Shown here in pieces: positions 17,556 through 50,173 of a stretch of DNA of 64,000 nucleotides. The stretch's first letter is position 1. Every line of letters starts with the position of its first letter. Under the pieces are notes generated by a model. It searched no databases, was not told the DNA's origin, and saw only the letters and a list, made by a program, of their open reading frames with translations. The stretch is from NCBI RefSeq assembly GCF_002286985.1, contig NZ_NSKC01000003.1, forward strand, positions 434,001 to 498,000. Direction: 5' to 3'. Source of the DNA: Halorubrum salipaludis. GTDB taxonomy: Archaea; Halobacteriota; Halobacteria; Halobacteriales; Haloferacaceae. Both the position numbers and the translations under genes were made by a program.

Positions 17556-17966
17556 CGACGGTGAACGCCTCAAAAACTCCGGCCGCTCGACAGCACGTGA
17601 TTGACCTCTCCGCGGTGAAGACTTCCAAAGCCCCAGCCGCTCGCTCATAAATGGTTGCTGTCGGATCGACGGTGAACACCGCCAAAGCCCCAGCCGCGGG
17701 GCGGGCGCACGCTCGCTGCGCGCTTTGGTCGCTCGCTGCGCGCTTTGGTCGCTCGCGTTGCTCGCTCCCTGCAGTGCTTGCGTCGCCTGCGCCCGCCCCG
17801 CGGCTGCCCCTTTGAGTCCACCCGACCGCACAGCAACCGCACCTCACGCCTCCCCAGCCTCGTCAGTCGTCGTCGCTTCGCTCCGACGACTGACTCCCTC
17901 GCGCGTGCTCCTCGGCCGCGAGGCGGCCTCGGAGGCACGCGCCGACAGCAGTTTGCTTATAATGAG
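17556..17966 (-). ncRNA. Dispersed structured element, copy B (core plus three tails)
   Basis: Read on the reverse strand. A TATA-like ATTATAAGC (17954-17962) comes first, and the P1 hairpin (17901-17942) is next. The P2 hairpin (17862-17894) has an 11-bp stem and 11-nt loop. A conserved 55-nt block (17807-17861) leads to a perfect 19-bp P3 stem (17691-17709 with 17788-17806) enclosing 78 nt. Three tail units GCTGGGGCTTTGG...TCACCG follow, with a 53-57-nt period. It matches copy A at 45662-46111 block by block, but its stem sequences differ with pairing kept. Reading frames across it are repetitive and unlike proteins. Transcription is inferred, not shown. Confidence 0.6.
17711..17750 (+). 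repeat. 20-bp tandem duplication in the P3 loop of copy B
   Basis: CGCTCGCTGCGCGCTTTGGT is present twice in tandem. This accounts for nearly all of the 22-nt length difference between the P3 loops of copies A (56 nt) and B (78 nt). Confidence 0.85.
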
Positions 17967-45483: not shown

Positions 45484-45661
45484 ACGTGCGCCGCCACGGG
45501 CGGATCGCGGATAAACGGGCCGGTTCCCGCGAAGACGGTCCGCTTCGCGTGACCGCGGAGCGCGTCCCCGTCGAATTCGACGTAACGGCCCCACTGAACA
45601 TCCCTCGTTCTGAGCGCTTCCTGAAACGAATCTCGCTGAAAACTGCTCCCTGATTGAATGT

Positions 45662-46111
45662 GAGAGTGGGTATTGCAGATCGATAGCGGCGAGACAGTAT
45701 TTAAACAGCCGTGAGCGACAGGGACGATCGCTCATAAAGGACGCCGCGGTGGCGTGCGCCTCCGAGCGGGCCGAAGGTCCGCGAGGAGACCGCACGAGGG
45801 AGTCGGCGGCGACCAACGGGAGCCGCCGACGAGGCTGGGGAGGCGTGAGGCTGCGGTTGCTGTGCAGGGTGGGCTCAAAGGGACAGGCGTGAGGCGCCCA
45901 GAGACGATGCAAGCACCGCAGGAACGAGTGGAACGAGTGACGAGGAGCGCAGCGAGTGTCTGGGCGCCTCACGCCTGGGGCTTTGGAGGTCCTCGCCGTC
46001 GATCTCCAGTTAACCGTTTATAAGTGATCGCCTGAGGCTTTGGAGGTCTCCACCACAGACACATCGATCACTTATAAAAGCCGCCAGCATCACCACAATC
46101 CGACTTATAAA
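45662..46111 (+). ncRNA. Dispersed structured element, copy A (complete)
   Basis: Order: left end with TATTTAAA (45698-45705) and TATA-like CTCATAAAGG (45731-45740); P1 hairpin 45754-45795 (conserved CTCCGA/GAGGAG around tandem G-A pairs); P2 hairpin 45802-45830 (9-bp stem, 11-nt loop); conserved 52-nt block 45831-45882; P3 stem of 19 perfect base pairs (45884-45902 with 45959-45977) enclosing 56 nt; two tail units GGCTTTGGAGGTC; an inverted repeat TTTATAAGTGATCG (46017-46030 and 46065-46078); right end. Copy B has the same order and spacing with different but still complementary stems. An RNA made forward from the TATA box is inferred; a DNA role is possible. Confidence 0.6.
45733..45739 (+). 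promoter_or_regulatory. TATA-like box of element copy A
   Basis: CATAAAG in CTCATAAAGG. From its first A (45734) to the conserved CCTCCGAG at 45759 is 25 nt, the same distance as in copy B. An alternative TATTTAAA stands 36 nt upstream. Confidence 0.5.
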
Positions 46112-46212
46112 CAACCGACTCACCGCAATGAGTCACGTGCTCCCGCTATCGATCAGTAGGTACTCGCCACGGACAGAGCGAAGGATCGAAAGGGAGACCG
46201 GGTTAGCTCCGG

Positions 46213-49301: not shown

Positions 49302-49367
49302 CGACAAGAAGCTCAACACGCAGAAGAAGGAAACAACGGCCCCAGAATGTATCCGTCTTCTCCTCGA

Positions 49368-49840
49368 TTATCGGGTTTCGTCTAACAGTTCGATACCGCG
49401 CTCGATCACCGCGTCAGTGGTGAACAGACTCGTCTCTCGCTGAAGCGCTCGCATTTGCGTGGCAGCCTCGTCGGCGTCGAGTCGTCCGCGACCGTGTGCG
49501 AGAGCGATGACACCGATCGATCCGTGTACCTCGATCCCAGCGTCTGCCGCCGACTCGCGGGCCGCGAGGTCATCCGTTAGCAGAGTGACCTTACGCTCTC
49601 TCGCGATCGATATCGCTGCGCTCTCGCCGACATCCAAATCGCCCGTTTTCTTCTCCTCGGCATCGGTTTCGACGAGTTCGTACGACACGTCGGCCAGCCC
49701 GGGCGGAACGCCGCCCGCTTCGATCTCTGCGTACACCGTCTCTGGGACGAGGAGCCCGTCAAACACGGAAAGGAGTCCGAGTGAGTCGATCTCAGCGAGG
49801 TGGATGAGCGGCCGGAGTTGGAAACGGCCGCGAGCGTCAC
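49368..49840 (-). pseudogene. DUF3368/PIN-type toxin with a frameshift
   Basis: The reverse strand from GTG 49838-49840 reads TLAAVSNSG, the usual start of DUF3368/PIN toxins. It then shifts frame at about 49806-49813: the expected continuation PLIHLAEIDSLGLLSVFDGLLVPETVYAEIE lies in the next frame. A single base seems to be missing in GGCCGCTC. The remainder (to 49368) keeps LTDDLAARESA and later PIN text. GTG overlaps the antitoxin stop by 4 nt. A sequencing error could mimic this. Confidence 0.75.
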
Positions 49841-50088
49841 GCGTTCAGGCCCCAGTCGACGTCCTCTTCCACGATCCGCTGTTCTCGTTCCACGCGTTCG
49901 ACTTCCGTCCGTCCGACCTGCTCGATCGCTTCATCCCGATCGATCTCGCCGCCGAGATACCGCCTCAGAACAACGTCTTCCCACAGGATTTCGAGACCGC
50001 GTTCAAGCGCGCGTTCAAACACTTCGGACTCCGGGAGATCGTTAGCCTCCGCGATCTCGCGAACGCGATCGGAAATCTCTGCAGCCAT
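49837..50088 (-). CDS. UPF0175-family antitoxin
   Basis: 83 residues: ISDRVREIAEANDLPESEVFERALERGLEILWEDVVLRRYLGGEI, then DEAIEQVGRTEVERVEREQR. UPF0175 proteins are the usual partners of DUF3368 toxins. The stop overlaps the toxin start by 4 nt, matching the toxin-antitoxin layout. Its toxin is frameshifted, so the antitoxin may now be orphaned or kept as a regulator. Confidence 0.82.
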   Translation of the reverse strand: MAAEISDRVREIAEANDLPESEVFERALERGLEILWEDVVLRRYLGGEIDRDEAIEQVGRTEVERVEREQRIVEEDVDWGLNA

Positions 50089-50173
50089 AATTGGGGATTG
50101 CTCGGCAACGTTCTTAAATGCATGTCCGGGCGGGGAAGTCCCTCACAGCCCCACAAGTAACGGAACCATCGGC

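Follow-up and report, generated by a model that had tools for sequence, protein, structure and literature searches.

The window analysed here, a 64,000-nucleotide stretch of Halorubrum salipaludis DNA (assembly GCF_002286985.1, contig NZ_NSKC01000003.1, positions 434,001 to 498,000 of the forward strand), contains two look-alike structured elements, copy A on the + strand and copy B on the - strand. The neighbours of A and B are cytidylate-kinase-like, phosphoribosyltransferase, O-methyltransferase and metallophosphoesterase genes. A preliminary description had placed the copies at 45662-46111 (A) and 17556-17966 (B, reverse), and had proposed that they share three hairpins in the same order but with different sequences. 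Both copies were found where they had been placed, with P1, P2 and P3 in the same order and with the shared blocks GAGGCTGGGGAGGCGTG and GGGCTTTGG. However, the conserved fold is narrower than these intervals, spanning 45746-45986 (+) in A and 17682-17948 (-) in B. The remainder of the interval proposed for A holds degenerate terminal inverted repeats (TIRs), a TATA-like box and partial 3′ tandem units. Two covariance models, R1 (P1, P2 and core) and R2 (P3), found exactly these two copies in the window and nothing else convincing: R1 matched 45746-45886 (E = 1e-19) and 17804-17948 on the - strand (E = 7e-23), and R2 matched 45876-45986 (E = 2e-25) and 17682-17814 on the - strand (E = 5e-21). 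The largest intergenic gap of the window (49302-50173, 872 bp, convergent) contains no element.

In copy A, hairpin P1 (45754-45795, +; GTGCG-C-CTCC-GA-GCGGGCC paired with GGTCCGC-GA-GGAG-AC-CGCAC) carries a conserved tandem G.A and is followed by hairpin P2 (45802-45830, +), whose arms GTCGGCGGC and GCCGCCGAC enclose an 11-nt G.A cap. Next comes an invariant single-stranded 20-mer, GAGGCTGGGGAGGCGTGAGG (45831-45850, +), the columns of which were nearly all at least 90% identical in an alignment of copies, and then a variable linker. The P3 domain (45876-45985, +) consists of CAAAG/CTTTG, a purine internal loop (GGG/GGG in the family), a 19-bp helix (45884-45902 with 45959-45977), an inner GCACC/GGAGC and a G.A-capped P4. 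In copy B, the corresponding features are P1 (17901-17942, -; GCGCGTG-C-CTCC-GA-GGCCGC paired with GCGGCC-GA-GGAG-CACGCGC), P2 (17862-17894, -; arms GTCAGTCGTCG and CGACGACTGAC, again with an 11-nt G.A cap), the invariant block GAGGCTGGGGAGGCGTGAGG (17842-17861, -) and the P3 domain (17683-17814, -) with 19-bp arms at 17806-17788 and 17709-17691. The P3 arms are exactly 19 perfect pairs in each copy, as the preliminary description had stated. Copy B also has an internal duplication (CGAGCGACCAAAGCGCGCAG repeated, 17711-17757) in the P3 cap that lengthens the loop. Both copies fold far better than dinucleotide shuffles, with z-scores of -5.6 (A) and -6.1 (B) and 0 of 200 shuffles as stable.

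A TATA-like box lies just upstream of each unit: TCATAAAG (45732-45739, +) in A, which is weak and falls just outside the motif list used, and ATTATAAG (17956-17963, -) in B. A TATA-like motif at this spacing was found in 63% of 137 copies against 0.4% of control windows. Downstream of the unit, A has an extra partial 3′ unit, CCTGAGGCTTTGG (46031-46043, +), belonging to a tandem unit of about 57 bp, with CTTATAAA-type boxes at 46017-46024, 46071-46078 and 46104-46111. Tandem 3′ units were present in 67 of 139 copies. Each has a copy of the P3 3′ end (CGGCTGGGGCTTTGG), a short GGTG/CACC palindrome and a TATA-like box, and one copy (L265, 1225-1470) has five spaced ends. Copy A is bounded by a degenerate left TIR (45651-45683, +) and a right TIR with a degenerate inner part (46123-46155, -). 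The family consensus of these repeats is TGATCGATnGCGGGAGTGAGTnTYGCARATYGG.

The two copies are members of a large family. A DNA search gave 64 matches in the genome of H. salipaludis, among which A has three full-length relatives 92% identical. The 20-mer GAGGCTGGGGAGGCGTGAGG with up to two mismatches occurs 132 times in this 3.5-Mb genome (69 on one strand and 63 on the other) and 9-194 times in each of 52 genomes of the genus, against 0 or 1 per strand for the reversed pattern. Two contigs of the same assembly (C23 and C27, positions 12-313 of each) begin inside near-identical copies of the element, and the assembly probably broke at these repeats. Named carriers include many Halorubrum species, Haloparvum, Halorussus and Halobellus. 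R1 reached E<=0.001 in 116 of 392 genomes of the order and in 31 of 95 genera, with 52, 69 and 43 copies in three genomes outside Halorubrum. There the layout is the same, with R2 next to R1 in most loci that have it. Some copies in distant genera (L224, L229, L232, L242 and L248) have only the half with P1, P2 and core and no R2 match next to it, so the two halves may be separable. R2 alone gave matches in 280 of 392 genomes, but its G.A-rich hairpin is less specific, and the R1 figures are therefore used here. No Rfam 15 family matched at or above its gathering score, and no description of the element was found in the literature searched, which lacked most subscription papers. The family is thus apparently unnamed, in line with the preliminary description, which knew of no named haloarchaeal RNA with this layout.

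Comparison of copies revealed heavy compensatory change. In the H. salipaludis genome, 34 of 36 P3 pairs and 18 of 24 P1/P2 pairs change on both sides, with 95.6% and 94.9% of cells paired, respectively. None of 500 shuffles was as high, and structures slid by 1-3 columns collapsed to 21-49% paired. In-register Watson-Crick pairing of P3 was 93% over 130 copies against 24-31% when slid by 1-2. Across the genus and allies, 25 of 36 and 15 of 24 pairs show two-sided change, and among distant families the numbers are 31 of 36 and 19 of 24. The outermost P3 pair is C-G in Halorubrum and mostly G-C in the distant families. The alignments of the own-genome paralogs and of the distant families were fitted to the model, which favours the structure, while those across the genus and allies were not. 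Covariation was assessed by counting pairs in the aligned structures rather than with R-scape, and RNAalifold applied to a raw MAFFT alignment of all lengths was misled by nested insertions. Tandem G.A columns are 94-100% conserved while the pairs beside them are among the most variable, so that the unpaired bases, and not only the pairing, are held. The proposal that a structure rather than a sequence is conserved is therefore supported. However, part of the two-sided change comes from gene conversion swapping whole hairpins between copies, and the argument of the preliminary description that random change would not preserve pairing is not by itself proof of selection. The covariation between distant families and the invariant G.A mismatches are the stronger evidence.

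The copies favour convergent gene gaps. Using a simple gene finder of our own, 30 of 64 copies in this genome were found to lie in convergent gaps against 59 of 306 gene pairs in the background (p = 5e-7). The downstream neighbour is co-directional in only 18 of the 64, which does not fit a cis-regulatory 5′ leader. A second set of 118 copies from other genomes gave the same pattern (55 convergent, 15 divergent). In 737 kb of small replicons of four genomes R1 found none, where about 33 are expected from whole-genome density (P about 4e-15), whereas two 20-kb chromosomal stretches searched alongside gave 3 and 1. No copy was found in viral contigs or phages, and plasmid searches gave only a few weak hits.

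Ten pairs of copies, one from another species and one from this genome, share both flanks in the same orientation (flank identity 78-94%), yet their hairpins often differ completely. At the B site, relatives show occupied states with different P1, P2 and P3, 5′ or 3′ remnants, and empty states. At the A site, 10 of 29 relatives have a copy beside the same phosphoribosyltransferase gene end in the same orientation and one in the other orientation, although the gene on the far side differs. Identical P2 hairpins occur with unrelated P3 domains (mean P3 similarity 0.72 against 0.70 for pairs with different P2). Conversion among paralogs therefore appears to exchange hairpins as modules, which explains the same hairpins with different sequences. 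Rare recombinants with mismatched P3 arms (copies L155 and L163) suggest that broken combinations are removed. About one third of the sampled copies of this genome, including A, have TIRs (21 with two), and no target duplication was recognised by eye at 21 TIR-bearing copies. The TIR pattern is in 22 of 51 genus genomes and was not found (<=3 mismatches) in 29, although all carry the element. TIRs are thus a secondary feature of some species. TIR-bearing copies often lie next to another shared repeat, GGCTCTGTTGAA...TTCTTCAGACA (outer flanks of L005, L156, L167 and L195), which may be a different small mobile element.

RNA is the likelier medium of the fold, although not a demonstrated one. 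The G.A tandems make the fold specific to the + strand, since the complement has T.C. Isolated G.T mismatches outnumber A.C (42 against 8), but counted as unique contexts the difference (14 against 8) is not significant, and it was not seen in whole-alignment counts that include misaligned upper stems. About half of the copies outside this genome lack a TATA-like box, and copies with and without one are equally well paired (0.966 against 0.969 paired). No transcript was seen, in the absence of expression data, and no protein partner was found. A and B belong to an order-wide haloarchaeal family of interspersed, chromosome-resident elements. With these reservations, the explanation that we consider somewhat more likely than not, and which is inferred, is that the + strand is transcribed (from its own TATA box in most Halorubrum copies, otherwise by read-through from an adjoining gene) and folds into a scaffold bound by one dedicated host or element protein. 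Because all copies must fit the same partner, copies with broken folds would be lost or overwritten by conversion from paralogs, so that the fold and the unpaired blocks stay fixed while stem sequences turn over. Copies would persist mainly vertically, and in one set of Halorubrum species the unit would have been captured between TIRs and spread further like a MITE. The scaffold may serve the host, for example at gene ends, or only the persistence of the element. We lean slightly to a tolerated element with an RNA-level requirement.

Other explanations appear unlikely. The + strand might fold as single-stranded DNA and be a substrate for an HUH (Y1/RAYT-like) transposase, as REPINs and PATEs are. 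The hairpins are strand-specific, GCGAAGC-type caps and PyGAPu tandem mismatches are probably also very stable in DNA, the high copy number, intergenic sites and long vertical persistence resemble REPINs, and 22 of 29 genus genomes have a Y1_Tnp gene (PF01797). However, Y1_Tnp was not found in 7 of 29 genomes, including near-complete ones with 125-130 elements, and the H. salipaludis genome has only one, so a REPIN-RAYT partnership is not required. The long conserved unpaired blocks, the linker and the spaced TATA box are also unlike REP/PATE anatomy, and the absence from small replicons and viral contigs counts against this reading. About as unlikely is a cis-acting element of gene 3′ ends (terminator, mRNA end processing or transcription insulator) selected at each site for the neighbouring gene. 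The preference for convergent gaps and for lying downstream of genes, the copies beside the same gene end as A in 10 of 29 relatives and the chromosomal restriction would fit. On the other hand, presence at a site is not conserved, the B site being empty or deleted in several relatives, copy number varies 9-194 between species, the element faces either way relative to its neighbours and often has its own upstream TATA, and avoidance of promoters alone would give the same location.

It is more doubtful still that the element is simply a MITE moved in trans by a DDE transposase, with the inner structure as passenger DNA. The TIR-bearing copies and the full-length relatives of A favour this view. 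However, the TIR pattern was not found in most genus genomes, no clear target duplication was seen, and order-wide covariation and vertical orthologs are not expected of passenger DNA; the absence from small replicons also counts against this view. No mobilising enzyme for the TIRs was found, and no autonomous partner was seen among the own-genome TIR places looked at, which were element-bearing copies except for one locus (L194) with a 284-bp span and no core and one (L199) with a single TIR; there was no plasmid or viral match. Least likely is the absence of selection on structure, with paired arms persisting only because gene conversion copies both arms of a hairpin together or because hairpin-templated repair corrects one arm from the other. 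The modular exchange of hairpins is in its favour, but it does not explain the invariant tandem G.A mismatches next to covarying pairs, the invariant unpaired blocks, the covariation between families or the rarity of recombinants with mismatched P3 arms.

Among known systems, bcr1/ERIC/BOX-type repeats of bacteria seem to share tens to hundreds of intergenic copies with a conserved RNA-like fold, mobile-element traits and no coding capacity. The present element is archaeal, spans an order and is confined to the chromosome, with a longer multi-domain fold, an invariant unpaired core, stems that turn over almost completely and an own TATA box in many copies. REP/REPIN-RAYT systems are likewise high-copy, vertically persistent, intergenic and palindromic, but the present fold is large and asymmetric rather than a short doublet. 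The MITEs, PATEs and SMRs of Haloquadratum (PMC3119063) are haloarchaeal, non-coding and multi-copy, and the TIRs of some copies (as in MITEs/SMRs) and the lack of an evident target duplication (as in SMRs) are shared with them. However, TIRs were not found in most species here, the structured core is conserved across families, and PATEs have only near-terminal palindromes related to IS605 ends. IS200/IS605-associated wRNAs (sotRNAs, RF02656/RF02657) and HEARO are also structured RNAs linked to mobile elements, but none of these matched even at E<=5, no tnpB/iscB gene lies beside A or B, and no constant-to-variable guide boundary was seen. SINEs of eukaryotes offer only an analogy, as many dispersed copies of one structured RNA gene with its own promoter; there is no evidence here of reverse transcription, tails or target duplications, and the element is confined to the chromosome.

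It remains possible, although less likely than not, that the family represents an undescribed and very abundant class of haloarchaeal structured RNA (or RNA-protein particle), encoded about once per 15-30 kb on the main chromosome of copy-rich Halorubrum species and excluded from plasmids and viruses, with a host function tied to the chromosome, and with stems rewritten by conversion among about 100 copies while the fold and unpaired motifs are held constant. If transcribed, the family would be one of the most numerous structured RNA families known in Archaea, with over 100 copies per genome in many species of a common genus and a presence in at least 31 genera, yet apparently without a name. 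It gives a rare natural experiment in which hundreds of paralogs per genus keep one fold while their stems are replaced, and its restriction to the chromosome poses a testable question about what tells chromosome from plasmid in haloarchaea.
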